Origin: a virus
IMG/VR virus record: IMGVR_UViG_3300028114_000021
Span: 1-48,483 of that record
DNA: 48,483 nt
Direction: 5' to 3' (one strand)
Shown here: in pieces, positions 26,320-42,478 of the stretch
Layout of the letters: each line of letters opens with the position of its first letter
Position numbering within the stretch: position 1 is the first letter of the stretch
Position numbers and translations under genes: made by a program
The notes under the pieces: generated by a model
Seen by the model: the letters and a program-made list of their open reading frames with translations, nothing else
Told to the model about the DNA's origin: nothing
Databases searched by the model: none

Positions 26320-27777
26320 ATGACGGAACAAAATTTAAATTTTCTTTCAGATTTAGTGAAGGAAATTGGCGGAGAGTATACACAATTAGCTAAAGATATT
26401 GATGAGACAGAAACGTATGTGGATACTGGTTCGTATATTTTAAATGCTCTGGTATCGGGAAGTATCTTTGGTGGAGTATCTGGAAATAAAATTACTGCAT
26501 ATTCTGGACTTTCTGGAACTGGGAAATGCGCTAGAGGCTCGGAAAAAATTACAATATATGCAAATGAAGACCTGATTGAATCTGAATTAACATATGAGCA
26601 ATTATATAAATTGTATGGGAGTGGAGAACACGAGGTTCCATATGAAGTAGCTGATGAAATTTATGTTAGAACCCCAACTGGATTTACTAGAATTAATGAA
26701 GTTGTAACTAAACATAATAACGAGGTGATTCGTCTAGATTTTGATGGCGAAGATACATTTGAATGCTCAGTTAATCATAATTTTTGTGATTACCATACTG
26801 GAATTGAAGTATCGGCAATTGATGCCAAAGAAATTATGTCTACATATGGTAAAAAAGTAGTTGTAGAAAAAACACCATTGGGAATTGAGAGTGTGTATGA
26901 TATTTCAATAGATGCCCCACATTGGTATATTAGTAATCCGAAATCTGGAATTTATCATCATAATACGTGGTTCGCATTAGCAACAGTAAAGAATTTTCTA
27001 GAAGCCAATCCCACAGGGTATTGTCTATATTTTGATACTGAGTCCGCAGTAACAAAATCCCTATTAGCAAGTAGAGGTATAGATTTAGCTCGGGTGATTG
27101 TATTGAATGTAGTCACGATTGAAGATTTCCGAACCAAAGCACTCAAAGCAGTAGATTTATATCTTAAGACTCCAGAACAAGCAAGAAATTCTTGTATTTT
27201 TGTATTGGATAGTCTAGGAATGTTGTCTACGAATAAAGAAATTAATGATACTTTGTTAGAAAAAGATACAAAGGATATGACTAAAGCTGCACTCATCAAG
27301 GCTTGCTTTAGGATGTTAACTCTGAAGCTCGGACAGGCTAAGATTCCGATGATTGTGACTAATCACCTATATGCTAATGTGGGTGGATATGGACCTCCTC
27401 AGGTCCAAAGTGGCGGAACTGGGCTTATCTATTCCTCTTCTACAATATTAGAACTTTCTAAATCTAAGGAAAAAGACGGAACTGATGTAGTTGGAGTTAT
27501 TCTCAAAGCTAAAACATTTAAATCTAGATTGAGTAAAGAAAATCAAGAAGTTGAAATGAGACTATATTATGACGAAAGAGGATTGGATAGATACTACGGA
27601 CTTCTGGAATTAGCAGAAAAATATAATATTTTTGAAAAAGTTGGAACTCGGTATAAAGTTTCAGATGGAACTACTCAATATGGAAAAACCATTTACGGTA
27701 ATCCAGAAAAGTATTTTACTCCAGAAATTCTAGAAGCATTGAATGAAGCAGCAAAATCGGAGTTTGCATATGGTTGA
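26320..27777 (+). CDS. uvsX: Recombinase UvsX with in-frame intein
   Basis: 485 residues, of which 339 are UvsX after splicing. The N-terminal extein ends GLSGTGK (residues 63-69) and the C-terminal extein begins TWFALATV (216), so the intein splits the Walker A motif GTGK|T between its key Lys and Thr. The remaining RecA-fold blocks are intact: GYCLYFDTESAV, CIFVLDSLGML (Walker B), MIVTNHLYANVGGYGPPQVQ and SGGTGLIYSSS. UvsX performs strand exchange with UvsY. Without splicing it could not bind ATP. Confidence 0.95.
   Translation: MTEQNLNFLSDLVKEIGGEYTQLAKDIDETETYVDTGSYILNALVSGSIFGGVSGNKITAYSGLSGTGKCARGSEKITIYANEDLIESELTYEQLYKLYGSGEHEVPYEVADEIYVRTPTGFTRINEVVTKHNNEVIRLDFDGEDTFECSVNHNFCDYHTGIEVSAIDAKEIMSTYGKKVVVEKTPLGIESVYDISIDAPHWYISNPKSGIYHHNTWFALATVKNFLEANPTGYCLYFDTESAVTKSLLASRGIDLARVIVLNVVTIEDFRTKALKAVDLYLKTPEQARNSCIFVLDSLGMLSTNKEINDTLLEKDTKDMTKAALIKACFRMLTLKLGQAKIPMIVTNHLYANVGGYGPPQVQSGGTGLIYSSSTILELSKSKEKDGTDVVGVILKAKTFKSRLSKENQEVEMRLYYDERGLDRYYGLLELAEKYNIFEKVGTRYKVSDGTTQYGKTIYGNPEKYFTPEILEALNEAAKSEFAYG
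26527..26964 (+). mobile_element. Mini-intein in UvsX Walker A (146 residues)
   Basis: It starts with Cys (CARGSEKITI, block A) and ends GIYHHN followed by Thr as the +1 nucleophile. Block B-like DGEDTFECSVNHNF (near 72-85 of the intein) and block F/G VYDISIDAPHWYISNPKSGI are visible. No LAGLIDADG or HNH domain fits in 146 residues, so it must be mobilised by another enzyme or be fixed. Confidence 0.92.
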
Positions 27778-28327
27778 ATTAAATGATTTAATACAAATAC
27801 ATGAAGAAGCTTTGGAGCCAAATGTATGCGACTTTCTCGTAAATCTATTTGATACTCAATTTGAATTTCAAGAAAAAATTGAGAACGATAGAAGACCCAA
27901 TTTCACGCAATTCAATTTAACCGAAAACCGAGAATTATCGGAAGAGGTAAATAATGTTCAGAACTATCTGATTCAAAAAACTTTGGAGTATAGAGATTCA
28001 TATTACGAATTTATGAACAAAGGTGTATTTCCAGAGAGTCACGCTTTTGAACACTACAGAATTAAGAGATACTCTCCAGAAGAGAATGAAGCTTTTGATA
28101 CACACGTAGATGTTCAAGATTATGAAACTGCTCGTAGATTTCTTGCATTTATGTGGTATCTCAATGATGTTGAAGCTGGAGGACAAACCGAATTTATAGA
28201 CCTTACTGTTGTTCCCAAAAGAGGAACTCTGATTATATTTCCTCCTATGTGGATGTTCCCACATAGAGGACTTGAGCCTAATTCCAATTCAAAATATATT
28301 CTAAGCACGTATCTGCATTACAAATAA
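27770..28327 (+). CDS. 2-oxoglutarate/Fe(II)-dependent oxygenase
   Basis: 185 residues from ATG 27770, which has GGAG at 27759-27762; ATG 27743 would overlap uvsX by 35 nt. The iron ligands are THVDV (H112, D114) and FPHRG (H165), with Arg near the C-terminus (RG) for 2-oxoglutarate. It resembles the prolyl-hydroxylase-type enzymes common in cyanophages. The substrate (protein side chain or base) is unknown. It lies between uvsX and gp41 and its stop overlaps the gp41 start (TAATG). Confidence 0.88.
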   Translation: MVELNDLIQIHEEALEPNVCDFLVNLFDTQFEFQEKIENDRRPNFTQFNLTENRELSEEVNNVQNYLIQKTLEYRDSYYEFMNKGVFPESHAFEHYRIKRYSPEENEAFDTHVDVQDYETARRFLAFMWYLNDVEAGGQTEFIDLTVVPKRGTLIIFPPMWMFPHRGLEPNSNSKYILSTYLHYK

Positions 28328-29697
28328 TGGAAAAAATTGAAACCACTATTCTCCGAAATTTAATTTTCAATAGTGATTATTATAAAAAGGTATTACCCTT
28401 TATCAATCCTGAATATTTTGATAATTCTCACGAAAGAATATTATTTGAGGAAATTAGTAAGTTCATCATTTCCTATGAAGACTTAGCAACAAAAGAAATT
28501 CTACTCATTGAAACTGAAAAGAGAACAGATTTGAATGAAGATGGATATAAGAATATCTGCAACTACATTAGGAGTCTAGATGATAGTCACGTAGACTTAA
28601 AATGGTTAGTGGATAACACTGAGAAATGGTGTAGAGACAGAGCAATCTATCTTGCACTGATGGAAAGTATTCGTATTGCAGATGGTGGAGATGAGGTTAA
28701 GGATAGAGACGCTATTCCTGGAATTCTGCAGGATGCATTATCTATCTCATTTGATGAACATATTGGTCACGACTTAATTGAGGACTATGAAAGAAGATTT
28801 GAATATTATACTCGTAAAGAGGATAAGCTTCCATTTGATATAGATTACTTCAATAAAATTACAGGTGGTGGTCTCTCTAAGAAAACCCTATTCCTGATTA
28901 TGTCTGCTCCTAATGCGGGCAAGTCATTGTCAATGTGTTCTTTTGCAAGCTCATTTCTAGCTCAGGGTAAGAATGTTCTCTACATTAGTCTAGAAATGTC
29001 GGAGGAGAAAGTCGCTCAGAGAATAGACTCAAATCTACTGAATGTGAATATCTCCGAACTGAGTAGTATTCCGAAAGAAAAATTTGAGTCTAGAATTATT
29101 AAATTGGCTCAAAAAACTCACGGGAAGTTTATTGTTAAAGAATATCCAACTGGATGTGGTCACGTTGGGCACTTCAAAAGTCTTTTGAGTGAACTTGCTC
29201 TGAAGAAACATTTTCATCCAGACATCATCTTCATTGATTATCTGAATATTTGTGCTTCTAATAGATATAAGAAGAACTCAAATATTAACTCATACACTTA
29301 TATTAAAAGTGTTGCAGAAGAACTTAGAGCACTTGCTGTAGAGTATGATGTTCCCATTCTGAGTGCTACTCAAAGTGGTAGAGGTGGATCAACATCCTCT
29401 GACCCAGATATGACTGATGTTTCTGAATGCATCTATGTGAATGAAAAAGTTGAACTTAGAGACGGCGCAATAAAGCAAATTCAAGATATTTGTGTCGGAG
29501 ACCAAATTACTTCACACGATGGATATAAGACAGTTATGTTGACTCATCATAAAAAATTCAAGGATTGTGTTAAAATTAGGACTAAGAGTGGTAAAGAACT
29601 TATTGTGAGTAAGGACCATATATTTCCAACAAATAGGGGTAGAATATCAATCAATACTGGGCTTACTCCTGGCGACAAATTAAATTCACTTTCATAG
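28327..29697 (+). CDS. 41: Replicative helicase gp41, N-terminal part fused to intein N-half
   Basis: 456 residues. The first 367 are gp41: an N-terminal primase-binding domain, RecA-like core with SAPNAGKS (Walker A, near 194-201), FIDYLNICASN (Walker B) and ATQSGRGGSTSSDPDMTDVSE. After Glu367 the chain changes to CIYVNEKVELRDGAIKQIQD and ends with IFPTNRGRISINTGLTPGDK, an 89-residue intein N-half (29428-29694) with block A Cys and block B-like SGKELIVSKDHIFP. The matching C-half starts 9 nt downstream. It resembles the gp41 split inteins described from ocean metagenomes. Confidence 0.95.
   Translation: MEKIETTILRNLIFNSDYYKKVLPFINPEYFDNSHERILFEEISKFIISYEDLATKEILLIETEKRTDLNEDGYKNICNYIRSLDDSHVDLKWLVDNTEKWCRDRAIYLALMESIRIADGGDEVKDRDAIPGILQDALSISFDEHIGHDLIEDYERRFEYYTRKEDKLPFDIDYFNKITGGGLSKKTLFLIMSAPNAGKSLSMCSFASSFLAQGKNVLYISLEMSEEKVAQRIDSNLLNVNISELSSIPKEKFESRIIKLAQKTHGKFIVKEYPTGCGHVGHFKSLLSELALKKHFHPDIIFIDYLNICASNRYKKNSNINSYTYIKSVAEELRALAVEYDVPILSATQSGRGGSTSSDPDMTDVSECIYVNEKVELRDGAIKQIQDICVGDQITSHDGYKTVMLTHHKKFKDCVKIRTKSGKELIVSKDHIFPTNRGRISINTGLTPGDKLNSLS
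29428..29694 (+). mobile_element. gp41 split intein, N-half (89 residues)
   Basis: From Cys at TGC 29428 to the stop TAG 29695-29697. The pattern (first Cys, VGDQI, GYKTVM, SKDH, GLTPGDKL) is that of short N-halves of fast split inteins. Confidence 0.9.
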
Positions 29698-29706
29698 AGA
29701 TTATAA

Positions 29707-30246
29707 ATGGATAATTTAGAATTAAAATGTTTTAGAACGGCAGAAAAAATGATTTCATCTGGATTGAGTAATCTAGATTTATTTGAACTTACGGAATTGT
29801 TGATTAAATTAGACAAAGAAAAACAAGAGAAAGATACAATAACCGACAATAACATAAGCTATGTTGATGAAATTGTAGAGATTATAGAATTAGGAGAATT
29901 GGAAACTATTAATATCGGAGTATCGGGGGATAATTTATTTTATTGTAATGGCATACTAACAAAAAATAGTTTTGGAACTATGATGACTGCTGACGTTGCA
30001 GTTGCTCTCATTAATACAGAAGAGTTGTCTAATTTAGGACAGGTAATGTTCAAACAACTCCGAAATCGTGATAATGATGTTTCTAAATTCAAGAGATTTG
30101 TAGTAGGTATAGACAAAACAAAAATGAAGCTATATAACGTTGAGCAATCTGCTCAAATAGAAGCTCTTGACGAAGAATTAGAATCCGACTATAATCCTGA
30201 AGAACAATCCAATAAAATGGATAAATTTTTGAAATTTAAATACTAA
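29707..30246 (+). CDS. 41: Intein C-half fused to the C-terminal part of helicase gp41
   Basis: 179 residues. The intein C-half is residues 1-87 (29707-29967), ending VSGDNLFYCNGILTKN, then Ser as first extein residue and FGTMMTADVAVALINTEELS, the helicase C-terminus, down to DKFLKFKY. Only about 36 residues are needed for an intein C-half. The extra 50 at the N-terminus (KCFRTAEKMISSGLSNLDLF and a Lys/Glu-rich stretch) are unusual and helical. The penultimate intein residue is Lys rather than His. Joining gives DVSE-SFGTMMTADV, the conserved gp41 sequence. Confidence 0.93.
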   Translation: MDNLELKCFRTAEKMISSGLSNLDLFELTELLIKLDKEKQEKDTITDNNISYVDEIVEIIELGELETINIGVSGDNLFYCNGILTKNSFGTMMTADVAVALINTEELSNLGQVMFKQLRNRDNDVSKFKRFVVGIDKTKMKLYNVEQSAQIEALDEELESDYNPEEQSNKMDKFLKFKY

Positions 30247-30255
30247 GGTGAATTT

Positions 30256-30660
30256 ATGAATGTAAGCACTCAAGATTATAGTAGATTTGTAGCTAGTATA
30301 ACCTCTAAACCATCCTCAAACTATGATGCTCTGATAGAACGAATGAATGAATTAAATGAACTTGGAGTGAATGTTCCAAAGTTGATGACTTCATACACTG
30401 GAATTTGTGCAGAAGCTGGAGAATACGCAGAAGTAGTCAAGAAGATTCTCTTTCAGGGAAAGCCATATAACGCAGAAAATGTATTTCATATGAAGCGTGA
30501 AATTGGAGATATTTTATTTTATATCGCATTAGCATGTGAGGCTTTAGGAATGACTATAGATGATGCCTTTGCTATGAACGTTGAAAAACTTTCTGCAAGA
30601 TATCCAAGTGGAACTTTTGATTCATATTTTTCTGAAAACCGAGTAACAGGAGACGTTTGA
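30256..30660 (+). CDS. mazG: MazG-like nucleotide pyrophosphohydrolase
   Basis: 134 residues with the MazG helical metal site AEAGEYAEVVKK (E53, E56 area) and KREIGDILFYIALACEALG (E82, D85). Cyanophage MazG enzymes hydrolyse NTP/dNTP and were proposed to adjust host ppGpp or nucleotide pools. Start ATG with AAGGTGA. It is followed by a strong terminator that closes the replication operon. Confidence 0.9.
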   Translation: MNVSTQDYSRFVASITSKPSSNYDALIERMNELNELGVNVPKLMTSYTGICAEAGEYAEVVKKILFQGKPYNAENVFHMKREIGDILFYIALACEALGMTIDDAFAMNVEKLSARYPSGTFDSYFSENRVTGDV

Positions 30661-30665
30661 TATTT

Positions 30666-30687
30666 AAGAGGCGAAAGCCTCTTTTTT
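30666..30687 (+). terminator. Terminator after mazG
   Basis: AAGAGGC / GCCTCTT stem, GAAA tetraloop, T-run. Confidence 0.88.
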
Positions 30688-30697
30688 ATGATATATG

Positions 30698-30704
30698 ATA
30701 AATA
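30698..30704 (+). promoter_or_regulatory. Late promoter box ATAAATA
   Basis: It ends 23 nt before ATG 30728. It overlaps codons after ATG 30695, so the gene must start at 30728. Confidence 0.55.
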
Positions 30705-30727
30705 TCATATGGTATACTCTTGAATTT

Positions 30728-31819
30728 ATGGCTCCACCAATCGTAAGACATACTCTAGCTGACCCATATAAAATTTTAGAAATAGTTCAAAAATTGGCAC
30801 CTAAGTCAGATAATCTAATATACAAAAAAAAGGACACGATATGGGTCATTCCGAAGATTTTAAAAAATGGTCCAGAATTACATAAAAAAATTTATGCAGC
30901 GTTAGTTTCTAAATATCCACTTTCTAAATTTAAAGAATCCACTGACGGAAATATAAAAAAGATACGAGTGGTTGGTAAGAATACTGGAACGGGAGAAGTA
31001 TATACGCAATGTCCAGTTGGAAAACGTTCATCCATCCTAAATCCAGGAAGAGCATATGAACTATACTTTCATTCAGTAATAGTAGACAAACTACTAAAAT
31101 TAACGGAACTCAAATCTGATTTAAAAGAGTTTTCGTATTTATTATTTGAAAAATATCATAATGTTACACTTACAATATGGAGTGTAAATAAGAAAAAAAT
31201 TGGAATTGGCCCAATTATATCCATAGATGATGCTGCGGGGAAAAGTAGTAAATCTGATGTAACAATTCAAACAAAACTAAAAAAAGTTAGAATATCATTA
31301 AAACAAAGTAATTTCTTTTCTTGGGGAAGTGCAGGAACTTATCACACTTTACACTCAGCTAGACCCAAAAAATTGATAGATAAGGCCGTTGCAACGGGCT
31401 TGATTTCTCTTGACCCTACTGACCGTAACAAAGTAATCTTTCCAGAAGGAATTATGGGAATACGAACTCCAGCTACGGACAGTGAAATTAACTATTATTG
31501 TTTTGGTATGAAAGATAATTTCGCGGATTATATTATTATAAATGGTAAAGAAGAACATAGTGACGAGGACTCGCTTTTCATATATATGGAAGCTGAGAAA
31601 ATATATAAAAGAAATCATCCACCAGATACGGTTGCACTCAGGCCAGAAGTGTATATGGTTATATACGACACTACGTTAAGGTCAAAGGACCCAGCTGAAG
31701 ACAGTAATTCTACAGCTATGTATCCATATAAGAATTTATCAGTTCAATTTGTAAATCGGAATCACGCAATGAATGGAGACATATTGAGAAAAAAGAAGTA
31801 TCTTGAATGTAAACTTTAA
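30728..31819 (+). CDS. Uncharacterised late protein, possibly a PD-(D/E)XK-like nuclease
   Basis: 363 residues from ATG 30728 (MAPPIVRHTLADPYKILEIV). I do not recognise the family. A region near residues 160-200, AAGKSSKSDVTIQTKLKKVR and ISLKQSNFFSWGSAGTYHTL, has the D-x(n)-[ILV]-S-L-K arrangement of restriction-like nuclease cores, and an upstream Glu (RAYELYFHSVI near 104-114) could complete it. Lys-rich N-terminal segments suit DNA binding. It lies between the mazG terminator and the packaged-enzyme genes, with a late promoter. Confidence 0.65.
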   Translation: MAPPIVRHTLADPYKILEIVQKLAPKSDNLIYKKKDTIWVIPKILKNGPELHKKIYAALVSKYPLSKFKESTDGNIKKIRVVGKNTGTGEVYTQCPVGKRSSILNPGRAYELYFHSVIVDKLLKLTELKSDLKEFSYLLFEKYHNVTLTIWSVNKKKIGIGPIISIDDAAGKSSKSDVTIQTKLKKVRISLKQSNFFSWGSAGTYHTLHSARPKKLIDKAVATGLISLDPTDRNKVIFPEGIMGIRTPATDSEINYYCFGMKDNFADYIIINGKEEHSDEDSLFIYMEAEKIYKRNHPPDTVALRPEVYMVIYDTTLRSKDPAEDSNSTAMYPYKNLSVQFVNRNHAMNGDILRKKKYLECKL

Positions 31820-31826
31820 GAATTGA

Positions 31827-31833
31827 ATAAATA
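31827..31833 (+). promoter_or_regulatory. Late promoter box ATAAATA
   Basis: Exact box ending 17 nt before ATG 31851. Confidence 0.65.
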
Positions 31834-31850
31834 CTTAAAAACCCTGTTAA

Positions 31851-33062
31851 ATGAAAACTTTTATACAATTTATATGTGAAGCCAGAGAAACTCAAGCATC
31901 TACGCAAGCAAGGCAGAGAGGTTGGAGAAGCAATGGCCACGGAGATTATTATGATAATTCAGGTAAGCTGGTAGCTAAAACTATTGGTGGAGAACTTAAG
32001 ATTTTCTCGGGTAGACAAGGAGCAGAGCAAGAACAAAAGTCTCAACGTCAACCTAAACAACAAGTTCAAAAAACTCAATCTACAAAGGCAGCAGCTTCAC
32101 CCGTTCCAAAATCTGCAAAGGGTGTTGTAGTTGTTGTAGGAAGATTTAATCCTCCTGCAAAAAATCACGAGAATATGTGTAAATTTGGAATGTCTAAAGC
32201 AACGGAAAATAATTATGACTTCCGAATATATCCAAGTAGAGTTCAAGATGCTGGAACAAATCCTCTAAACCCAAGTCTTAAGATTCAATATATGCAAATG
32301 ATGTATCCTGATTATGCAGATTATATTTTGGATAATGATGAATCAAAAACTATCTTTGATGTATTAACTGCATTAGGAAATGATGGATATCAAGATGTAA
32401 GATTAGTTGTGGGTGCAGATAGGCTAGGAGAGTTTCAGTCATTAGCTCATAAGGGAGAAGGGCAGGACTACCAATTCGCTAATATTGAAGTCCTTGCAGC
32501 TCCAGGAAAGGACCCAGACAGTGATACTGGTGGAACTGGGTCTTCTGCTGCACTGAGAACTTCAGCCGCAGAAGGAAACGCTCAAGCATTTTTCTCTAGT
32601 CTGCCTGCTCCAATGAAGAGAGCAGATAAAGAAGAATTGTTTAATTCGGTGGTTGATTCTATGAGTAGAGGTCAGCAGAAAGAATCTCTGGAGTTATGGA
32701 AAATTGCTCCAGAATTAGATATGGAAATGTTGAGATATAATTATAAAGTTAATAATTTGTATCCAGTAGGTTCCATTGTTGAGAATCTGAATACTGGATT
32801 GGTGGGAGAAGTCACGAGAAGAGGAACCAATTATTTAATTTGTGTGACGGAAGATGGAATGATGTTTAAATCTTGGCTACAGAATGTGCATCTATTCAAT
32901 GAAGAGGTATATGAGGTGGGAACGGATAAGTATCGGAAGTTTCTACAAAGCCTCACTCCAGGTCAACCAACAAAGTCTTATACTAATGTTAGAATTAAAG
33001 AAACTGTCCCCAAATCAATAAATAAGATAAGGCGAATGTTGCAGTTAGGTAAGCTTCAATGA
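31851..33062 (+). CDS. Capsid-targeted nucleotidyltransferase-fold protein
   Basis: 403 residues. The N-terminus MKTFIQFICE|ARE is the clearest capsid-targeting peptide in the window (T4 MKTYQEFIAE|A), with an IxE|A cleavage site. A Gln-rich linker follows, then a cytidylyltransferase-like domain: VVVVVGRFNPPAKNHENMCK (91-110), RIYPSRVQDAGTNPLNPSLK, LVVGADRLGEF and SSAALRTSAAEGNAQAFFSS (the ISSTxxR-like end). The HxGH motif is degenerate (AKNH, only the last His kept). The C-terminal 100 residues are separate. It is likely carried in the head and delivered to the host. The substrate is unknown. Confidence 0.82.
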   Translation: MKTFIQFICEARETQASTQARQRGWRSNGHGDYYDNSGKLVAKTIGGELKIFSGRQGAEQEQKSQRQPKQQVQKTQSTKAAASPVPKSAKGVVVVVGRFNPPAKNHENMCKFGMSKATENNYDFRIYPSRVQDAGTNPLNPSLKIQYMQMMYPDYADYILDNDESKTIFDVLTALGNDGYQDVRLVVGADRLGEFQSLAHKGEGQDYQFANIEVLAAPGKDPDSDTGGTGSSAALRTSAAEGNAQAFFSSLPAPMKRADKEELFNSVVDSMSRGQQKESLELWKIAPELDMEMLRYNYKVNNLYPVGSIVENLNTGLVGEVTRRGTNYLICVTEDGMMFKSWLQNVHLFNEEVYEVGTDKYRKFLQSLTPGQPTKSYTNVRIKETVPKSINKIRRMLQLGKLQ

Positions 33063-34423
33063 CTCAGATTACAGAAGTAAGTTCAAGAACCAAGGATTTA
33101 GAGAAAAGAGTAAGTCAGGCATTTGAGAATGACCCTGATGTTTCAGATAGTCTTAAAACTCCAGAAGCACTTAGGTCTGCTCGTGAAAAGAATCGTGAAC
33201 GTGCAAGAAGATTAGACTACGAACAAAAGCAAAATACTCTTGTACATAAGAGAGATAGATTAGAATGGCAAAAAAAGCAATCTATTAAAAAGTATAGAGA
33301 GCTTGAACTACAGAGAAAAGATAGAGAAGCTCGCAGAGCAGCTCAAGGAAATCAATCTTCTGGAATTCAGACTCAAACCATAAATGATACCGACAAAGAC
33401 CCAACTGCTTATAAAAAAGCACTTGGAAATCTTGCAAGTATCGGCAAACACGCTGTAGGTACAGCATTTTCTATAGGAAAAAAGGAATATCAAAAAAGAA
33501 AAGACCAGCAATCTGAAAGAGATAAAGAAGCCGAGACTGCTAGAGCGAATGATTTAGATAAATTTAGAAAATCTAAAATTCAGAAATTTAAATCTGCAAC
33601 CACTTCTGCAATGTCGCAGTCTAAAAGACTTCTTCCTTCTGCACCATCACAAATGAGTGGTAGAGAAAAGAGAACTGCAGTATCTCAAGGAAAGTATCTG
33701 GGAAAGGGACAAGTTTCTGAAATATATTCCTGTTGGAGAGAGGAATTACTCTATGAAGTTGATGATAAAAAGAAAAAGAAAGAAAAGGGTATAGATTATA
33801 CCGTAGACATTATGAAAGGTAAAAATAAAATTATCATTAATCCTAATATTAAAGAAGAATTAAGTTCAGATTCACTTCAGGAAGCTCTGACCAGAATAGA
33901 ACAAGTGATGAAAAGGAAGCTTCTAATTGAGGCCAGAAAAAGAGACCATCTAGCAAATGCGATATTAAGCGTTGCATTTGCTGCTAATTTGGCGCAGTCT
34001 CCAAAAAACTTTGTGAGGTCTGGTCATATAGAGGGTCCAGGAATGCAGTTGATGGACCGAATGATGAAAAGAAAAGAAAAGGCCACTAAAAACTTGGACC
34101 ACGGTAGAGTGAATCATCCAGCAAGAAATCGAAAAAAATTAGAAGAAGCAAAGTATGATAAGTCTAATTTAGATTGCAACAAGCCAAAATCCGACCCAGT
34201 TGGAAATAATACAACTGGTAAATCTCACGTAGTTAAGTCTTGTGAAAATGAAGAAGAAAAATTAATTCGGTTTGGTCAGAAAGGAGTTAAGGGTTCTCCA
34301 AAAAAAGAAGGTGAAAGTGAGGCATATAAAAATAGAAGAGAAAGATTTAAATCCAGACATAGTAAAAACATTAAGAAAGGTAAAAGCTCTGCCGCATATT
34401 GGAGTGATATTTGGAAATGGTGA
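33059..34423 (+). CDS. Highly basic late protein with DUF6321-like C-terminus
   Basis: 454 residues, very rich in Lys and Arg. N-terminal coiled-coil-like RSAREKNRERARRLDYEQKQ; middle Ser/Gln-rich; a C-terminal domain KSHVVKSCENEEEKLIRFGQ, GVKGSPKKEGESEAYKNRRE and HSKNIKKGKSSAAYWSDIWK, a basic domain common in cyanophage proteins. MTQITE|V and LLIE|A are potential prohead protease sites. It is coupled to the upstream gene (ATGA). A DNA-binding head component is likely. Confidence 0.75.
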   Translation: MTQITEVSSRTKDLEKRVSQAFENDPDVSDSLKTPEALRSAREKNRERARRLDYEQKQNTLVHKRDRLEWQKKQSIKKYRELELQRKDREARRAAQGNQSSGIQTQTINDTDKDPTAYKKALGNLASIGKHAVGTAFSIGKKEYQKRKDQQSERDKEAETARANDLDKFRKSKIQKFKSATTSAMSQSKRLLPSAPSQMSGREKRTAVSQGKYLGKGQVSEIYSCWREELLYEVDDKKKKKEKGIDYTVDIMKGKNKIIINPNIKEELSSDSLQEALTRIEQVMKRKLLIEARKRDHLANAILSVAFAANLAQSPKNFVRSGHIEGPGMQLMDRMMKRKEKATKNLDHGRVNHPARNRKKLEEAKYDKSNLDCNKPKSDPVGNNTTGKSHVVKSCENEEEKLIRFGQKGVKGSPKKEGESEAYKNRRERFKSRHSKNIKKGKSSAAYWSDIWKW

Positions 34424-34730: not shown

Positions 34731-34764
34731 CTCATACAAATTGTAAGATAACGAGGAAGATTAA

Positions 34765-35298
34765 ATGGCTCTCTGGGGAAATATTGACGCTAAAGGTTCC
34801 AACGGAACGGTGAGTTTAAACTACACCACATTAACTGTGACTGGAGCGGGAACTTCATTTGGGCAGGTTGGTGCTGCAGCAACTGGTAATGTAATTAGAT
34901 TTGGTAGACTTGGTGGTACTTCCAACTTCTTCGGAGATGCTGTGATTGTGGGTATTGCAAGCACTACTCAACTTTCTATTGCATCCACATCAAATTTGAG
35001 TGGAGTTGGAATTGCTACAACATCATACACAATTAGTGAACTTCCTATATCTGGAACACTTAACTCTAATTATCAGGTTGGAGTGAGTACAACCTACACT
35101 GCAATAGTATATGGAGTTGATGAAACTGAAGCTTCGGTTGCATCTACAACCAGATATGCAGTGACTCACGCAGGATGGGTAGGAATTATGACCTATATAG
35201 ATTGCAATGGAAATCTAAGAGTCAAGAATGAAGTTTTTGTTGCATCAAATTCAATTACAGGGGATGCCCCAGACAACTTTATATTTCCAAATACATGA
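34765..35298 (+). CDS. Virion structural protein (cyanophage family)
   Basis: 177 residues beginning MALWGNIDAKGSNGTVSLNY, with Thr/Gly/Ser-rich beta-structure repeats (LTVTGAGTSFGQVG, VIVGIASTTQLSIASTSNLS, GVGIATTSYTIS) and VTHAGWVGIMTYIDCNGNLR near the end. This opening and composition are typical of a structural protein found in many T4-like cyanophages; its location in the virion is unknown. The next gene overlaps its end by 4 nt. Confidence 0.8.
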   Translation: MALWGNIDAKGSNGTVSLNYTTLTVTGAGTSFGQVGAAATGNVIRFGRLGGTSNFFGDAVIVGIASTTQLSIASTSNLSGVGIATTSYTISELPISGTLNSNYQVGVSTTYTAIVYGVDETEASVASTTRYAVTHAGWVGIMTYIDCNGNLRVKNEVFVASNSITGDAPDNFIFPNT

Positions 35299-35666
35299 CT
35301 TTTGATGATTTGAATGAAGATAACCATTTATTATTTGCTATAAAATATTATGAAAATCCGCAATCTGTAACCAAAGAAGATTTTTATGAAGATTTGAAGA
35401 GATTCAAGTTGATTAAAAAACTTCTTAAGAAATATATTTTAGATAATAGAGTTAATATTAAACTATTGATTAATCATTTTTTGATTTTATATAATGTATT
35501 TGGTGAGGCGGCCACGCCACTATTATTTTATAAAACCGAATCTCAATATTGGTCTCTCATAAAAACTACAATATTGTATTTGGGGAAATTTCCAGAATAC
35601 CCCAAAACGATATTGAATGATATACCAGTGGATATATATTTTCTTAAGCTATTACGAGAATTATGA
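35295..35666 (+). CDS. Conserved cyanophage protein of unknown function
   Basis: 123 residues: NEDNHLLFAIKYYENPQSVT, ILDNRVNIKLLINHFLILYN, then VFGEAATPLLFYKTESQYWS. The RLLLNH..I..NVFG-like core is shared with a small protein seen near primase in T4-like cyanophages. Mostly helical, no catalytic motif. Its ATG overlaps the structural gene upstream and its stop overlaps the next start. Confidence 0.75.
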   Translation: MTFDDLNEDNHLLFAIKYYENPQSVTKEDFYEDLKRFKLIKKLLKKYILDNRVNIKLLINHFLILYNVFGEAATPLLFYKTESQYWSLIKTTILYLGKFPEYPKTILNDIPVDIYFLKLLREL

Positions 35667-35872
35667 AGAAGAAATCGCTACAATTCATCATAGAACTCAT
35701 TAAACATTTAAAAGAAGAAGGTGGTCCTACCAATTCCGTTGGTGCTGGAGGAATTAATGGACTCTCAGGTAAAGAAGGTGATTTACCTCCAGTGGACCTA
35801 AGAAAAAAGAAATATCGTAGACTACCTCCGCCATATAAAGCCTTATACAGAAGGTCCTTTACTCAGAAATGA
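35663..35872 (+). CDS. Small Gly/Pro-rich virion-type protein
   Basis: 69 residues: KKKSLQFIIELIKHLKEEGG, PTNSVGAGGINGLSGKEGDL, PPVDLRKKKYRRLPPPYKAL. The PTNS...G..GL....PPVD.RK pattern recurs in cyanophage late proteins of unknown function. Translation is coupled to the upstream gene (ATGA). Confidence 0.7.
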   Translation: MKKKSLQFIIELIKHLKEEGGPTNSVGAGGINGLSGKEGDLPPVDLRKKKYRRLPPPYKALYRRSFTQK

Positions 35873-35879
35873 TTAAATC

Positions 35880-35908
35880 TTGACCAAATTTTAACTTCGT
35901 TTTAAACT
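35880..35908 (+). promoter_or_regulatory. Sigma70-like promoter for primase
   Basis: TTGACC (35880-35885), 17 nt, TAAACT (35903-35908), 23 nt before the primase ATG; it separates late genes from the nucleotide/replication block. Confidence 0.55.
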
Positions 35909-35931
35909 TAGTTCTCACAGCCACTTAATTC

Positions 35932-36924
35932 ATGTCATTTATTGAGGAAAAGTATATTGCCGAAATTTCACCACAACTACTTAAATTTATAAAAAAAGGT
36001 AACACCTACAATTTTAGATGTTTTTATTGTGGAGACAGTGAAAGATATAAAAACAAAGCGCGAGGATATTTATATCCAGTGAAAGACACATATAATTATA
36101 AATGTCATAATTGCGGAAAATCTTGTAATATATCTATGGTACTGAAGGACATAGACAAATCGATATATGATAGATATGTTTTTGAGAAGTTTAAGAATAA
36201 AGGTTCAAAAACATTAAAATTAGTTTCATCTCCACCAAAAAAGAAACCCACATTTAGTAAAAAGTATTTTGATTTACTCACGATTTCAGAGTTATCCGAA
36301 ACTCATATTGCCCGAAAGTATATTGAATCTAGAAAAATCCCCAAATCAAAATGGAATCAATTATACTTCTGTGAAAGTTTTAAGAAGTGGACTAATTCTC
36401 AAATACACACATTTGAGACTACAGATTATGAAGAGAGTAGAATTGTAATTCCACTCATATATGAAAATCAAATCTTCGGATTTCAGGGTAGAGCACTGTC
36501 CAAAAATTCTACAGTGAAGTACATCACCGTAATTCTAAATAATGAACTACCGAAGATTTATGGATTGGACAATGTGAATGTGAATTCTCCAATATATGTT
36601 TTGGAAGGGCCATTTGATAGTATGTTTATACCAAATTCTATAGCTATGGTAGGAGCTGATTTGAATATCAAAACTTTACATAAGTTTAAAGATTGTAATT
36701 TTGTTTATGTATATGATAATGAAAGAAGAAATAAACACATTGTTCATCGTATGGAAACTACAATAGAATCAGGAGACTCTATTGTAGTTTGGCCAAAAAA
36801 TTTGGAGTATAAAGATGTGAATGATATGATAATTGCAGGATTATCTCCAGAAAATATTATTAAAGATAATACTTTTCGTGGATTAGCGGCAAAAGCTAAA
36901 ATGATAGGTTGGAAAAGAATTTAG
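35932..36924 (+). CDS. 61: DNA primase gp61
   Basis: 330 residues (T4 gp61: 342). The zinc-binding domain has C30, C33, C58 and C61 (RCFYCGDSERYKNKARGY; YKCHNCGKS). The Toprim part shows VLEGPFDSMF (E225 area) and NFVYVYDNERRN. It partners gp41 in lagging-strand priming. The nrdA ribosome-binding site overlaps its stop. Confidence 0.92.
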   Translation: MSFIEEKYIAEISPQLLKFIKKGNTYNFRCFYCGDSERYKNKARGYLYPVKDTYNYKCHNCGKSCNISMVLKDIDKSIYDRYVFEKFKNKGSKTLKLVSSPPKKKPTFSKKYFDLLTISELSETHIARKYIESRKIPKSKWNQLYFCESFKKWTNSQIHTFETTDYEESRIVIPLIYENQIFGFQGRALSKNSTVKYITVILNNELPKIYGLDNVNVNSPIYVLEGPFDSMFIPNSIAMVGADLNIKTLHKFKDCNFVYVYDNERRNKHIVHRMETTIESGDSIVVWPKNLEYKDVNDMIIAGLSPENIIKDNTFRGLAAKAKMIGWKRI

Positions 36925-36938
36925 GAGTCAAATCAATT

Positions 36939-38564
36939 ATGAGCAACAAAGAAATTAGAGTTAAGAAGCGCAGTGGAGAGGATGAGATACTCCTGTTAGA
37001 TAAAATTCATAGAATGGTGGATGAAGCCTGCTTTGGATTATCTGGAGTATCTGCATCGCAAGTTGAAATTTCTTCAGGAATACAATTGTATGATGGAATT
37101 ACTACCTCAGATATTCAGGAAATTCTCATCAAATCTGCATCCGATTTGATTTCTTTGGATTCTCCAAACTATCAATACGTTGCAGCAAGACTTCTACTGT
37201 TTTCTATTCGTAAGAAAATCTATGGTAGACTTAAGGACCATCCTAAATTCTACGAACACATTCAAAATTGTGTAAATTTGGGTGTATACGATAAGGAAGT
37301 TCTTGAGAAGTATACTGAGCAAGAACTAAATGCTCTTGGAGAATATATTGACCATCATAGAGATTATCTCTTCACTTATGCTGGTCTACGTCAAGTCGTA
37401 GATAAGTATTTGGTTCAAGACCGAAGCACATCAACGCTATACGAAACGCCTCAGTTTGCATATATGATGATTGCACTGACTATGTTCTCAAACTATAATT
37501 CAACAATTCGTATGGATTATGTGAAGAGATATTATGATGCGGTCTCCAAACATAAAATTAATATTCCTACTCCTATTATGGCGGGAGTGAGAACTCCATC
37601 TCGGCAATTTGCCTCCTGCACTCTCATTGATGTAGACGATACTCTAGACAGCATCATTGCTTCTGATGGCGCGATGATGAAGTATGTGGCGGGTAGAGCT
37701 GGAATTGGATTGAATATCGGAAGACTACGTGCAATCAATAGTAAGATTCGGAATGGAGAAGTTCTATCAACGGGTATCATTCCATTTCTGAAGAAATTTG
37801 AAAGCTCTCTCAAATCTTGTCATCAAGGTGGAATTCGTCAAGGCAGCGCTACGGTTTATTTTCCAATTTGGCATACTGAAATTGAGGAAGTTCTCGTTCT
37901 TAAGAACAACAAAGGAACTGAGGAAAATCGTGCCCGAAAGTTGGATTACGGCATTCAGTTGTCCAAGATATTCTACGAACGATTCATTCAGAATGCAGAA
38001 ATCACACTCTTCTCTCCTCAGAATGTTCCTGGTCTATATGATGTATTCGGAATGCCCGAGTTTGATGAACTCTATACAAAATATGAAAAAGACCTCACCA
38101 TTCCAAGAAAAGTTGTTGGGGCACAAAAACTGATTCTTGACTTACTCAAAGAAAGAGCGGAAACTGGTAGAATCTATATTATGAATATAGACCACTGCAA
38201 CTCTCACAGTTCATTTATAGAACAAGTTGCAATGAGCAATTTATGCGTTTCTGGTGATACTAAAATAGAAGTATTACTTGATGAGGATGAGTGGGATAGA
38301 ATTGAAATTCAGGATTTGCCGAAATTTATGAATAGCTACTCTAATATAAAAGTCCTTTCTTATAACATAAAAAGTGATATTTTAGAATGGAAACAAATCA
38401 CTGCATTTGCACAGACTTCTCCGAAATCAGAAGTAATGAGAATTACTGATGAAGAAACGGGTAAGAGTATCGTAGCCACACCAGGACACAAAGTATTTAC
38501 GAAAAATCGTGGATATGTGATGGTAAAAGATTTGGTTGAAACTGATGAATTAATAATCAATTGA
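36939..38564 (+). CDS. nrdA: Ribonucleotide reductase large subunit NrdA, N-terminal part plus intein N-half
   Basis: 541 residues from ATG 36939 (AGGAG at 36923); TTG 36909 is less likely. An ATP-cone (IRVKKRSGEDEILLLDKIHR) leads into the class I barrel with ASCTLIDVDDTLDS (redox Cys), VAGRAGIGLNIG, GSATVYFPIWH and IYIMNIDHCNSHSS (radical-site Cys). The extein stops at MSNL and the intein N-half starts with CVSGDTKIEV at 38244, 106 residues long, ending VETDELIIN. The second half of the protein is encoded from 39266. The joint falls exactly at the second redox-active Cys. Confidence 0.95.
   Translation: MSNKEIRVKKRSGEDEILLLDKIHRMVDEACFGLSGVSASQVEISSGIQLYDGITTSDIQEILIKSASDLISLDSPNYQYVAARLLLFSIRKKIYGRLKDHPKFYEHIQNCVNLGVYDKEVLEKYTEQELNALGEYIDHHRDYLFTYAGLRQVVDKYLVQDRSTSTLYETPQFAYMMIALTMFSNYNSTIRMDYVKRYYDAVSKHKINIPTPIMAGVRTPSRQFASCTLIDVDDTLDSIIASDGAMMKYVAGRAGIGLNIGRLRAINSKIRNGEVLSTGIIPFLKKFESSLKSCHQGGIRQGSATVYFPIWHTEIEEVLVLKNNKGTEENRARKLDYGIQLSKIFYERFIQNAEITLFSPQNVPGLYDVFGMPEFDELYTKYEKDLTIPRKVVGAQKLILDLLKERAETGRIYIMNIDHCNSHSSFIEQVAMSNLCVSGDTKIEVLLDEDEWDRIEIQDLPKFMNSYSNIKVLSYNIKSDILEWKQITAFAQTSPKSEVMRITDEETGKSIVATPGHKVFTKNRGYVMVKDLVETDELIIN
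38244..38561 (+). mobile_element. NrdA split intein, N-half (106 residues)
   Basis: Block A CVSGDTKIEVLL, block B-like SIVATPGHKVFT (TxxH), then GYVMVKDLVETDELIIN and stop. Confidence 0.92.
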
Positions 38565-38617
38565 TATTAAGTGTAATCTCTATATATTATAACTAGCCGT
38601 GAGATTACACTTAATAT
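38564..38617 (+). repeat. Perfect 17 bp inverted repeat between nrdA half and GIY-YIG gene
   Basis: ATATTAAGTGTAATCTC (38564-38580) and its exact complement GAGATTACACTTAATAT (38601-38617) flank a 20 nt loop. It starts on the last base of the NrdA stop codon and ends 1 nt before the endonuclease ATG. There is no T-run, so it is more likely a translation-blocking hairpin than a terminator. Confidence 0.85.
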
Positions 38618-38618
38618 A

Positions 38619-39279
38619 ATGAAAACTCACATCATTTATAAAATCACAAATTTAAAAAAATAGTAAATGCTACATAGGAAAAACTGAATATTCTCTATCA
38701 CATAGATGGAATCGGCACCTCTCTTGTGCAAGAAATGGCTCTAAATTTAGATTTCATTCCGCAATTAGAAAATATGGTGAAGATTGTTGGGATTTATCCA
38801 TTATTGAAACTTACCAAACTGAGAATGTTAATATCATAAACGAAAAAGAAATCCATTTTATTAAACTTTTTGAAAGTAATACTAAAAAAGGTTATAATGC
38901 AACTTTAGGTGGAACAGGCGGGTGGATGATTCCCAGATGTTCTAAAGAAGTCCAGGACAATTGGTTTAATTCATTAACACTCAACTCAACTGGGTATTCT
39001 AATCCAAATTGGAATGGATTAACTGATGAGGATTTAATTGAAATAGGAATAAAATTTATTAAAATATATAAGTTTATTCCTGGGATTATGGTATTGAGAG
39101 AGTTTGCGATAACTCATTTAAATTTGACTTTTCCAAAACACTTTTCAAAAAATAGATTTGGTGGGAAGTATATAAATTATTCTAAAATACTTGAAGAAAA
39201 AACAGGATTGAGTTACAATCCATATTATAGACACAGACGAATTATCTTAACCGAACTAGAAAAAAATGCTAAAAATTGA
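38619..39279 (+). pseudogene. GIY-YIG homing endonuclease between intein halves, frameshifted at A7
   Basis: From ATG 38619 it reads MKTHIIYKITNLKK then TAG 38661. Dropping one A from the A7 run at 38654-38660 restores IYKITNLKNSKCYIGKTEYS, a textbook GIY-YIG start, continuing SLSHRWNRHLSC, IRKYGED, EIHFIKLFES and GYNATLGGTGG, about 220 residues to TGA 39277-39279. The C-terminal half probably binds DNA. Its end overlaps the intein C-half by 14 nt. It may be decayed, rescued by slippage on the A-run, or a homopolymer error. Only the part from ATG 38926 is open without correction. Confidence 0.85.
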
Positions 39280-40354
39280 ACATCTTGAAAACGAAATTCC
39301 AGTATATGATATTACTGTGGAGGATAATCATAATTTCTTTGCGAATGATATCTTAATTCATAATTGTACAGAAATAACTCTTCTAACAAAACCTATTCAA
39401 AGTCTTGAAGATGAGAACGGAAGAATTGCATTGTGTATTCTAAAAGCTTTAAACGTAGGTAAAATTAAGTCTGATGAAGAACTTGAAGAATTGTGTGATT
39501 TGTGTGTCAGGTCTTTAGACGAATTGATTGATTATCAGTCCTATCCAATTAGAGCTGCTGAACTTTCTGCAAAAGGAGGAAGAACTTTAGGAATAGGGGT
39601 TATTGGGCTTGCACATTATCTTGCAAAACTAGGATTCAAATATGAAGACCCAGAAGCTTGGAAAGCAGTTCACGGTCTTGCGGAAAGTATTCAATATTAC
39701 CTACTTAAGGCTTCAAATCAATTAGCTAAGGAGAAGGGAGTTTGTTCTGATTTTTATCAGTCCAAATATTCTCAGGGAATTCTACCCATAGACACCTACA
39801 AAAAAGAAATTGATGATATCTGCGAGGTCTCATATCAACACGATTGGGAAGAATTACGTCAGAGTATCATTCAATATGGCCTGAGAAATAATACTCTTAC
39901 TTGCATTCTTCCCAGTGAGTCATCTAGTGTGACCTCTAATGCTACAAATGGAATTGAGCCTCCTAGAGGTTATCTATCCATCAAACAATCAAAGAAAGGA
40001 CCTATTAAGCAAATCGTCCCACAGTATAATACACTCAAAAATAATTATACTCTATTGTGGGATATTAAATCCAATGAGGGATACTTTAATATTGTTGCGA
40101 TGATTCAGAAGTTCTTTGACCAAGCTATTAGTGCAAATTGGAATTACAATCCAGAGCACTATCCAAATAATGAAGTTCCAATGAGCGTGATTGTAAATGA
40201 TTTTCTTTCCGCATATGCTAAAGGACATAAAACTGCTTACTATCAAAACACATATGATGGAAAAACTGATTCCTCTGCGAAGGATGAAACTCAAAATTTG
40301 ATTGATGAAATTTTAAACTCACAAGATGAAACTTGTGATAGCTGTTCAATTTAA
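39266..40354 (+). CDS. nrdA: Intein C-half plus NrdA C-terminal part
   Basis: 362 residues. The intein C-half is 33 residues (39266-39364) ending NHNFFANDILIHN, followed by Cys +1 and TEITLLTKPIQSL. Extein features are GRTLGIGVIGLAHYLAKLGF, LPSESSSVTSNATNGIEPPR (the radical-transfer region) and the C-terminal CDSC pair that re-reduces the active site. Splicing with the N-half restores SNLC-TEI. The ATG lies inside the end of the endonuclease gene, with no good ribosome-binding site. Confidence 0.95.
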   Translation: MLKIEHLENEIPVYDITVEDNHNFFANDILIHNCTEITLLTKPIQSLEDENGRIALCILKALNVGKIKSDEELEELCDLCVRSLDELIDYQSYPIRAAELSAKGGRTLGIGVIGLAHYLAKLGFKYEDPEAWKAVHGLAESIQYYLLKASNQLAKEKGVCSDFYQSKYSQGILPIDTYKKEIDDICEVSYQHDWEELRQSIIQYGLRNNTLTCILPSESSSVTSNATNGIEPPRGYLSIKQSKKGPIKQIVPQYNTLKNNYTLLWDIKSNEGYFNIVAMIQKFFDQAISANWNYNPEHYPNNEVPMSVIVNDFLSAYAKGHKTAYYQNTYDGKTDSSAKDETQNLIDEILNSQDETCDSCSI

Positions 40355-40363
40355 GGTAATATT

Positions 40364-42478
40364 ATGATAAATGGAATGACGGTATTTAATACCGAGGATA
40401 TTGATACGACTAAATCACCTATGTTCTTTGGGGCTCCTCTAGGAGTTCAAAGATATGACACATTCAAATACCCAGAATTTGAAAAACTCACTCAACAACA
40501 ATTGAGTTTCTTCTGGAGACCCGAGGAGATTTCTTTACAGAAAGATAAATCTGATTATATGACTCTTCGCCCAGAACAGAAGCATATATTCACTTCAAAT
40601 CTAAAGTATCAAATTCTATTAGATAGCGTTCAAGGAAGAGGACCAGGAATGGCATTCATTCCTTATTGCTCTCTTCCTGAATTGGAAGCTGCGATGACTG
40701 CCTGGGAGTTCTTTGAGATGATTCATAGTCGCTCATATACTCATATCATCAAAAATGTATATGCAAATCCAACAGAAGTATTTGATACTATCATTCATGA
40801 TGAGATGATTCTAGAGAGAGCGGCATCAGTAACTGAGTCCTATAATGACTTTATCAATTATGCTCAACAATATGGCTCTACAAATATGTGGAGATTTGCG
40901 AATGAAGGAATTGATGTCGGATTATCCACAAGAATAGAACTGAAACGGAAGCTATATCGGGCAATTATGAATGTGAATATTCTTGAAGGAATTCGCTTTT
41001 ATGTGAGCTTCGCCTGTAGTTTCGCTTTTGGTGAGCTAAAACTGATGGAAGGTTCGGCCAAGATTATCTCACTGATTTCGCGTGATGAAAGCTGTTTTGT
41101 GAAAGGAACTGAAGTTTTAACACCAATTGGATGGAAGAAATTTGAGGACCTAGACCAGACAGAAAAAGTGGCTCAATATAATACGAATGGTTCAATTGAA
41201 TTTGTGCATCCATTACATTACACTAAAAAACCTCATTCTGGTTTAGTGTATGAGTTCTCCAATATCAAAGGACACTTCAAACAGGTAGTCACCCCAGACC
41301 ATAGAATTATCTGGAGAGATAGCATCACTAGAGACATTAAAGAAAATACTGCGGAAGAATTTAATTCTTCTTTTTTGAAACATTTTATTGCTTCTGGGGT
41401 TAAAACTGGTGGTAGAGCCGAACTTTCATATGTTGAAAGATTTAAAATTGCTCTGCAGGCAGATGGGTCAATACAGAATAAAGACCTCAGAAATGGAAAA
41501 TTCAATGGGTGTAATATTACAACTTTTACTCTTACAAAACCCAGAAAAATTGATAGGCTGGACCATATTCTAGAGCAGATTCAATTTAGACATACGAAAA
41601 TAGAATTTATACATAATGATAAAATTTCTTACGTGTATACTGTATGGGTTCCTATAGAGCACGATGTTGTTAAGGATTTCTCTTGGGTTAATCTAGAAGA
41701 AGTTGGTGGCGCTTGGTGTATTGAATTTCTAGAAGAGCTTTCTCACTGGGATGGTCATCTAAGAAATGGAGATTATTCTAACATTTATTTCTCTACTACA
41801 AATTCAGATGTAGCTGATATGGTTCAAGCCATTGCCGCTCTTTCTGGAAGAAGAGCACATAGAGGTATTCAAATAGACCATAGACAGGATAGATATAAGA
41901 ATGTTCATCGCATAACCATCATTCAAGATAGAGATTACTATTGCGCTGGAGCCAAACCAAAAACAACTTCAACTTATAACTATGATGGAGATGTATTCTG
42001 TGTCTCCGTTCCCAGTGGAATGTTAGTTGTTCGTTATGAGAATAAAGTCATTGTATCTGGAAATTGTCATTTAAATCTCACACAAAAAATTCTCACTAAA
42101 TGGAGGCAGGGAGATGACCCAGAAATGCTTGGAATCATTCAGGAAGAGAAACATTATGTAGATAAAATGTTTGAACTTGCTGTGAATGAAGAAAAACGAT
42201 GGGCACAGTATCTGTTTCGTGATGGAAGTATGATTGGATTGAACGACAAATTACTTTTCAATTACGTGGATTGGATTGCAAATCGTAGAAGAAAGGCAAT
42301 TGGATTAGCTCCTATGTTTGATATTCCCGCAAAGAATAATCCTTTACCCTGGACTTCACATTGGTTGAATAGTAAGGAAGTTCAAGAAAGCCCACAGGAG
42401 ACTGAAAAAATTTCGTATTTAGTAGGAGCAATCAAACAAGATATTGACACTGATACCTTTGTAAACTTTAAATTGTAG
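40364..42478 (+). CDS. nrdB: Ribonucleotide reductase small subunit NrdB with intein
   Basis: 704 residues, 380 after removal of the intein. Extein: FFGAPLGVQRYDTFKYPEFE, FTSNLKYQILLDSVQGRGP, EAAMTAWEFFEMIHSRSYTH (iron ligands), FIPYCSLPELEA and ILEGIRFYVSFACSFAFGEL. The intein enters SRDES|CHLNLTQ, that is within the ExxH pair that binds the diiron centre (E. coli ARDEALHL). The protein forms the tyrosyl radical for NrdA. An AAGGTAA site lies before ATG 40364, 10 nt after nrdA. Confidence 0.95.
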   Translation: MINGMTVFNTEDIDTTKSPMFFGAPLGVQRYDTFKYPEFEKLTQQQLSFFWRPEEISLQKDKSDYMTLRPEQKHIFTSNLKYQILLDSVQGRGPGMAFIPYCSLPELEAAMTAWEFFEMIHSRSYTHIIKNVYANPTEVFDTIIHDEMILERAASVTESYNDFINYAQQYGSTNMWRFANEGIDVGLSTRIELKRKLYRAIMNVNILEGIRFYVSFACSFAFGELKLMEGSAKIISLISRDESCFVKGTEVLTPIGWKKFEDLDQTEKVAQYNTNGSIEFVHPLHYTKKPHSGLVYEFSNIKGHFKQVVTPDHRIIWRDSITRDIKENTAEEFNSSFLKHFIASGVKTGGRAELSYVERFKIALQADGSIQNKDLRNGKFNGCNITTFTLTKPRKIDRLDHILEQIQFRHTKIEFIHNDKISYVYTVWVPIEHDVVKDFSWVNLEEVGGAWCIEFLEELSHWDGHLRNGDYSNIYFSTTNSDVADMVQAIAALSGRRAHRGIQIDHRQDRYKNVHRITIIQDRDYYCAGAKPKTTSTYNYDGDVFCVSVPSGMLVVRYENKVIVSGNCHLNLTQKILTKWRQGDDPEMLGIIQEEKHYVDKMFELAVNEEKRWAQYLFRDGSMIGLNDKLLFNYVDWIANRRRKAIGLAPMFDIPAKNNPLPWTSHWLNSKEVQESPQETEKISYLVGAIKQDIDTDTFVNFKL
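41093..42064 (+). mobile_element. NrdB intein with LAGLIDADG endonuclease (324 residues)
   Basis: Starts CFVKGTEVLTPIGWKKFEDL and ends VIVSGN before Cys +1. Block B QVVTPDHRIIW is near 64-74. Two LAGLIDADG-like motifs, ERFKIALQADGSI (near 115) and CIEFLEELSHWDGHL (near 209), keep their acidic residues, so the endonuclease may be active. The penultimate residue is Gly rather than His. Confidence 0.93.

Follow-up and report, generated by a model that had tools for sequence, protein, structure and literature searches.

The window analysed here, a 48,483-nucleotide stretch of viral DNA (positions 1 to 48,483 of IMG/VR record IMGVR_UViG_3300028114_000021), is a fragment of a T4-like cyanophage in which psbA was recognised by eye in translation and for which Synechococcus and Prochlorococcus phages were among the best tblastn rows (UvsX, gp41, NrdA and NrdB as queries). 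Its positions 16320-48483 are 100% identical to the 91,444-nt IMG/VR contig IMGVR_UViG_3300027970_000012 (three loci compared), and no near DNA match to the stretch 23767-42478 was found among 50,697 phage records. We identified four in-frame inteins, all placed to the base, in the genes for the UvsX recombinase, the gp41 helicase and the ribonucleotide reductase (RNR) proteins NrdA and NrdB; the insertions total 3,071 nt within the 16,159-nt interval 26320-42478. These are the genes named in the original prediction, which had been made from the sequence alone, and the open reading frames (ORFs) directly show the arrangement that it described, with two contiguous inteins (UvsX and NrdB) and two split ones (gp41 and NrdA). 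The features of all four genes lie on the + strand.

The UvsX N-extein (26320..26526) ends at the Walker A Lys (SGTGK) and the C-extein (26965..27777) starts at the Walker A Thr (TWFALA). Between them lies a contiguous mini-intein of 146 residues (26527..26964) with Cys1, terminal His-Asn, Thr+1 and no endonuclease; the junctions, marked here and below by slashes, read GTGK/CARGSEK...GIYHHN/TWFALA in one reading frame. The whole protein matches PHROG 97 (UvsX-like recombinase, E 2.7e-80). Against the intein profile TIGR01443 the insert scored 14.1 bits, below the cut-off of 15.6, and it gave no convincing match in the PDB; the AlphaFold model of UvsX was poor (mean predicted local distance difference test score, pLDDT, 47.9) and was not used. 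Extein-based searches had suggested that this intein was unique, a view that was abandoned when a search with the intein itself gave 14 loci, including the window's own. Ten of these, on ten contigs, carry it at the same UvsX site (L254-L263; L-numbers denote fetched loci), with 59-84% identity to the window intein. L263 is contiguous; in the remaining nine the intein is split and its N-terminal half (IN) has about 24-30 residues. The extein-to-extein gap is 1.465-1.492 kb in seven of the nine (L254, L255, L257-L261) and shorter in L256 (689 nt) and L262 (560 nt). In L254, L255, L257, L258, L259 and L260 the halves enclose a frame of 323-333 codons; it is in pieces in L261, only its end is present in L256 and none is listed in L262, so that two copies have lost most or all of the ORF yet stayed split. 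By eye this ORF was taken for a GIY-YIG endonuclease, an assignment that we dropped: Pfam gave only MUG113 for L254, at a sub-cut-off E of 0.0061, and the L255 ORF gave nothing convincing in the Pfam and PHROG comparison. The K/T site is also occupied in a divergent virus (L264/L265), and homologues of the UvsX intein sit in other P-loops, namely that of a clamp loader in L266, that of gp41 in Vibrio phage vB_VmeM-32 and that of a clamp-loader subunit in LR756508. In the library searched, none of the papers listed described a UvsX intein in its title or in the opening of its abstract.

The gp41 gene is broken into two ORFs, separated by 9 nt and two stops. The N-extein (28327..29427; DnaB_C, E 3.3e-18) ends in DVSE and is followed by IN (29428..29697), which has 89 residues (29428-29694) and a stop and begins at DVSE/CIYV. 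After a 9-nt spacer (29698..29706), which holds the second stop, the C-terminal half (IC; 29707..29967) runs for 87 residues to ILTKN/SFGT and the C-extein (29968..30246) opens with Ser+1 (SFGTMM). The IN scored 17.9 bits against the curated intein profile, below its cut-off of 24.5. A profile of six read-through copies of the intein matches the gp41-1 intein (6QAZ, E 2.7e-23), which was also the first structural match of the read-through model (pLDDT 63). The halves contain conserved extra Cys, and the IC bears a conserved N-terminal extension of about 48 residues, modelled as two helices. We considered the extension as an endonuclease leftover and rejected this, the extension being conserved in members that still have an ORF between the halves.

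Relatives of the gp41 IC were found in 58 other loci (59 with the window's own). Four incomplete loci were dropped, and both halves are readable in the remaining 55, window included. In 39 of these the halves are 1.1-1.2 kb apart and enclose a frame of 288-372 codons; in the other 16, among them the window, the distance is about 200 nt or less. Re-fusion of the halves into one ORF is seen in none of the 55, and each of the 16 copies that lack the endonuclease gene has stayed split, which we regard as the most interesting addition of this analysis. On a quick tree of the gp41 inteins, with the endonuclease state classed by inter-half distance, the state changes at least 10 times, 4 of the changes being forced by starred branches. 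In one locus, L299, about 1 kb is missing at an 8-nt repeat, and both flanks have the same sequence as in L307 and L311; the gap fits deletion of an endonuclease gene that would have left the split behind, an assembly error being the alternative. The window's nearest gp41 intein, in L268, is 73% identical and likewise without endonuclease. With an N-extein 82% identical to the window, L268 also has the closest gp41 found, closer than those of L005-L007, which had earlier been taken as the nearest relatives. The same locus (87-1079) also has, upstream of gp41, the C-terminal part of an intein in UvsX at a second site (HN/SGLQYAAS); the UvsX Walker A site lies outside the locus. Another relative, L026 (5800-12744), has two split UvsX inteins and one split gp41 intein, with an ORF between the halves of each. 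The gp41 genes of L292 (2468-3677) and L305 (1209-2430) each carry a pair of split inteins, at TRSGY/S and DTSE/C, with 12 residues from one site to the next. Among isolates, 13 records matched the gp41 IN at E up to 0.001. One is Shigella phage ESh36 (L374, ON528746.1, a T-even phage whose record is marked unverified), in which gp41 is split at the same DxxE/S site and an ORF separates the two halves; Caulobacter phages make up the remaining 12, and most of their named rows are annotated as terminase.

In NrdA, the N-extein (36909..38243; PRK09103, E 5.1e-184) ends in MSNL and IN (38244..38564) consists of 106 residues (38244-38561) and a stop, beginning at MSNL/CVSG. The IC (39266..39364, 33 residues) ends at ILIHN/CTEI and leads into the C-extein (39365..40354; PRK09103, E 7.1e-132), which starts with Cys+1 (CTEITL). 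Both halves pass curated profiles (IN, TIGR01445, 38.0 bits against a cut-off of 24.5; IC, TIGR01443, 38.3 bits against 15.6), and IN matches the NrdJ-1 intein 8UBS (E 3.6e-12). Between the halves is a GIY-YIG-type homing endonuclease gene (38619..39279), absent from the original prediction, whose end overlaps the start of IC and which is frameshifted near 38660, within an A-run; an intact relative (L164:3361-4035) matches GIY-YIG with E 4.7e-12. Eleven other loci are occupied at the NrdA site; three are contiguous, and in eight an endonuclease-like ORF separates the halves. The +1 Cys had been described as the redox Cys after MSNL. The site was right and the role given to the residue was not: it aligns with position 439 of E. 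coli R1 (offset 7), and Cys439 is the thiyl-radical cysteine.

The NrdB N-extein (40364..41092) ends in RDES and the C-extein (42065..42478) starts with CHLNLT; the whole protein matches PRK09101 (E 3.7e-138), and PHROG 8368 (E 8.9e-38) covers its residues 567-703. The contiguous intein between them (41093..42064, 324 residues) has the junctions RDES/CFVK...VSGN/CHLN. None of the curated intein profiles matched it, and there was no Pfam match and no recognised endonuclease family. Its residues 3-100 match the AceL NrdHF-1 intein (6ZGQ, E 4.1e-5) and PHROG 12229 (ribonucleotide reductase) covers it with E 5.9e-25. The same site is occupied in Pseudanabaena phage PA-SR01, in PTm1 and in L328, and L359 and L360 have similar flanks; the NrdB intein of phiTE is at another site.

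All four inteins have Cys1 and a C-terminal Asn, and their ends differ: HN/T in UvsX, KN/S in gp41, HN/C in NrdA and GN/C in NrdB, the +1 residues thus being Thr, Ser, Cys and Cys. The penultimate His is present in UvsX and NrdA and is replaced by Lys in gp41 and Gly in NrdB, variants that are conserved among the respective homologues. Homology to HINT domains was found for NrdA (curated profiles and 8UBS), gp41 (6QAZ) and NrdB (6ZGQ), and is weaker for UvsX. Inteins of different genes showed no significant similarity to one another in pairwise BLAST (best E 0.021, six sequences only). The original description of three inteins as inserted at catalytic residues stands, with the gp41 site taken as a conserved motif and not as a catalytic residue.

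Empty sites, a check that the original prediction had proposed, were found for all four inteins. Outside the window's contig, the extein flanks are joined without a gap at the UvsX site in 125 of 125 loci, at the gp41 site in 144 of 149, at the NrdA site in 76 of 87 and at the NrdB site in 66 of 67 (informative loci, with at most 80 per extein-containing query; these are counts of loci and not of viruses, since some are on one contig). Divergent occupied sites can escape such queries, as did the UvsX of L026/L027. Chance is a poor explanation for the four insertions, because each has empty sites in relatives and intein relatives elsewhere. Among loci found with the UvsX or gp41 intein as query and readable at both sites, four have only the UvsX intein, ten only the gp41 intein and none both; the earlier extein queries gave 108 loci in which both sites are empty. 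For the RNR genes, NrdA alone is occupied in seven loci, NrdB alone in one, neither in 58 and both in none, and an occupied NrdA is found with an empty gp41 site in three. PA-SR01 has an occupied NrdB site and an empty NrdA site, and in L004-L008, whose gp41 is 71-73% identical, every readable intein site is empty. A patchwork of this kind would be expected from mostly separate gains and losses.

We consider it highly probable that these are four separately acquired homing elements, each inserted at a single conserved codon in a replication or nucleotide gene of T4-like type, and for the most part past the mobile stage. UvsX and NrdB would each be made as one precursor and are predicted to splice in cis, and gp41 and NrdA appear to be 'fractured genes', in which the intein halves encoded by two ORFs would associate and splice in trans. 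The elements may have spread in mixed infections, by means of an endonuclease gene located within the intein or between its parts. That stage seems to be over here: the UvsX and gp41 inteins are without endonuclease, the NrdA gene for it is frameshifted and none was recognised in NrdB. Most same-site relatives of the UvsX and gp41 inteins carry an inter-half ORF; the window copies carry none. The inteins would persist because only precise deletion would restore the enzyme. A protein that bears an intein is known to become functional only after splicing, and on this basis the enzymes of recombination, unwinding and deoxynucleotide (dNTP) production in this phage are probably all splicing-dependent, as originally proposed.

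Several observations weigh against this explanation in whole or in part. The divergent virus L026/L027 is occupied at the UvsX K/T site, at the second UvsX site and in gp41, and L268 combines a gp41 intein with one at the second UvsX site; the endonuclease-less gp41 intein that L268 shares with the window would fit common descent of that intein. The curated intein profiles are passed by NrdA only, gp41 and NrdB are without the usual penultimate His (their homologues share this), and the gp41-family endonuclease, of which one relative was tested, matches Vsr only weakly (E 0.0097, below the cut-off). In NrdA the identity to the window is lower for IN than for the exteins (median 51%, against 69% for the N-extein) and higher for the short IC (85%), and in gp41 intein and extein identities are about equal (62% and 57% vs 57% and 52%). 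A clear excess of intein over extein identity is limited to UvsX, so that recent horizontal spread is not shown for NrdA and gp41. The UvsX intein is more similar to the window than the C-extein is in five of the six relatives with a full-length C-extein match (the exception is L263), as recent horizontal spread would give.

The original prediction saw in splicing a possible shared control point, for example through redox or temperature. In a wider form of this idea, in which the signal might also be ATP or the state of the DNA, one cue would time recombination, unwinding and dNTP supply together. Three of the sites are indeed at functional residues, the gp41 halves have conserved extra Cys, a few relatives have UvsX and gp41 inteins together, and P-loop RadA inteins of archaea splice conditionally with temperature and single-stranded DNA (PMC5790916). 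Given four inteins that are dissimilar and end in different residues, that mostly occur apart in relatives, and that are missing from every site read in the relatives with 71-73% identical gp41, we regard such coordination as very unlikely and infer that shared regulation is absent. The distribution counts against one shared switch; the argument concerns joint control and not the regulation of a single intein.

Loss of splicing is a different matter. One or more inteins might have lost activity, with protein pieces that function without being spliced; this is reported for phage Aeh1, whose split NrdA is described as fully functional (PMC2988022), and the missing penultimate His in gp41 and NrdB could be taken in this sense. 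This appears quite unlikely when all four inteins have kept Cys1, the C-terminal Asn and the +1 nucleophile, when gp41 IC relatives exist in 58 other loci and when the active-site residues of UvsX and NrdB are separated by an intein within one chain. It is hardly credible that an assembly artefact or a chimera produced the multi-piece arrangement. The 100% agreement of the window with the 91-kb contig may only mean that the same reads were used, and the frameshift in the NrdA endonuclease gene lies in an A-run; the gp41, NrdA and UvsX sites are nevertheless occupied in contigs from other metagenomes, and the NrdB site is occupied in the isolate PA-SR01.

The four inteins are additions to known kinds: fractured genes, P-loop inteins and phage RNR inteins. 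Fractured genes with split inteins were reportedly described by Dassa and colleagues in 2009. The window's gp41 and NrdA likewise are phage genes broken by a split intein, with relatives that have an inter-half ORF of the GIY-YIG kind (NrdA relative tested) or a weakly Vsr-like one (gp41 relative tested); in contrast, the gp41 endonuclease gene is gone from the window, that of NrdA is frameshifted, and UvsX and NrdB are contiguous. The gp41-1 intein (6QAZ) is the nearest solved relative of the window gp41 intein by sequence and fold. However, DVSE/S is not the gp41-1 site TRSGY/S, where the L305 intein matches 6QAZ with E 7.6e-48, 12 residues before its window-site intein, and the window IC has the extension of about 48 residues and ends in TKN.

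Position between the invariant Walker A Lys and Thr, a 'classic' P-loop site, is shared by the UvsX intein and the mycobacteriophage intein TerL1-a (PMC5050341). RadA inteins also lie in a P-loop (PMC5790916), whereas that of the window is in UvsX, with relatives in the gp41 P-loop and in that of a clamp-loader subunit. Short IN are known from the atypically split inteins AceL-TerL, GOS-TerL and VidaL (PMC13014065) and are seen in L254-L262 and, with 34 residues, in a third terminase intein of the window's contig; the window's UvsX copy differs in being contiguous. PA-SR01 shares the NrdB site, with 47% intein identity, and differs in its empty NrdA site, and AceL NrdHF-1 resembles the NrdB intein as given above. 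Split RNR genes, with seven nrdA and two nrdJ inteins, are on record from ocean metagenomes (PMC3653736), as are Campylobacter phage inteins in terminase, PhoH and NrdA (PMC3322345) and a phage polymerase with a split intein and an HNH gene (PMC6892783).

Split inteins are used as tools, and they also model the way in which a gene is broken up. Since relatives show the empty site, the contiguous intein, the split with an endonuclease gene and the split without one, the order of events is testable. Many natural split inteins that could be put to splicing assays, among them some whose N half is short, are available from the gp41 DVSE/S and UvsX K/T families; a new control mechanism is not shown by the finding. 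More tentatively, and with slightly less than even confidence, we suggest a wider account. Insertion of an endonuclease gene would split the host gene inside the intein, and in gp41 the split would be one-way (0 of 55 re-fused, with at least 4 changes of endonuclease state). Cyanophages would thereby pile up stranded inteins (seven here), with core machinery that depends on splicing for no regulatory benefit, and intein families would jump between the P-loops of unrelated ATPases. For NrdA and UvsX there are contiguous forms, which may be re-fused copies or precursors of the split ones, and we therefore do not take irreversibility of the split to hold throughout.

The original list of four was short, since the contig carries seven inteins, recognised by eye and by homology; the four of the window interval are joined by three in the terminase large subunit gene (L250, G001:C1:48400-60500; contig 58690-55311). 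A count by TIGR01443 over 50 records was too insensitive, with two matches (one sub-cut-off) in the window's contig as opposed to these seven. The first terminase intein (contig 58690-57707, 328 residues) is in the Walker A motif (GK/P...HN/TTT), has no Cys or Ser at position 1 and is presumably class 3-like, judging by its motif. The second (57340-56048) has 431 residues, and the third is split, with a 34-residue IN (55876-55772, with stop) and a 115-residue IC (55655-55311). The terminase ORF matches LAGLIDADG_3 (E 2.3e-29). In the window, psbA (13909-16824) was read by eye as three exons with two interruptions and is preceded by a PhotoRC-II RNA (13781-13875; Rfam RF01717, 61.9 bits). The first gap holds an HNH endonuclease ORF (14594-15262), and group I intron matches were found at 15744-15986 (90.5 bits) and at 15109-15340 (32.7 bits, which is short of the gathering score of 50); a further ORF of the region (16126-16824) had no Pfam match. 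A homing endonuclease-like gene for a protein of 502 residues lies on the - strand at 3794-5302 (PHROG 3339, E 6.2e-99).

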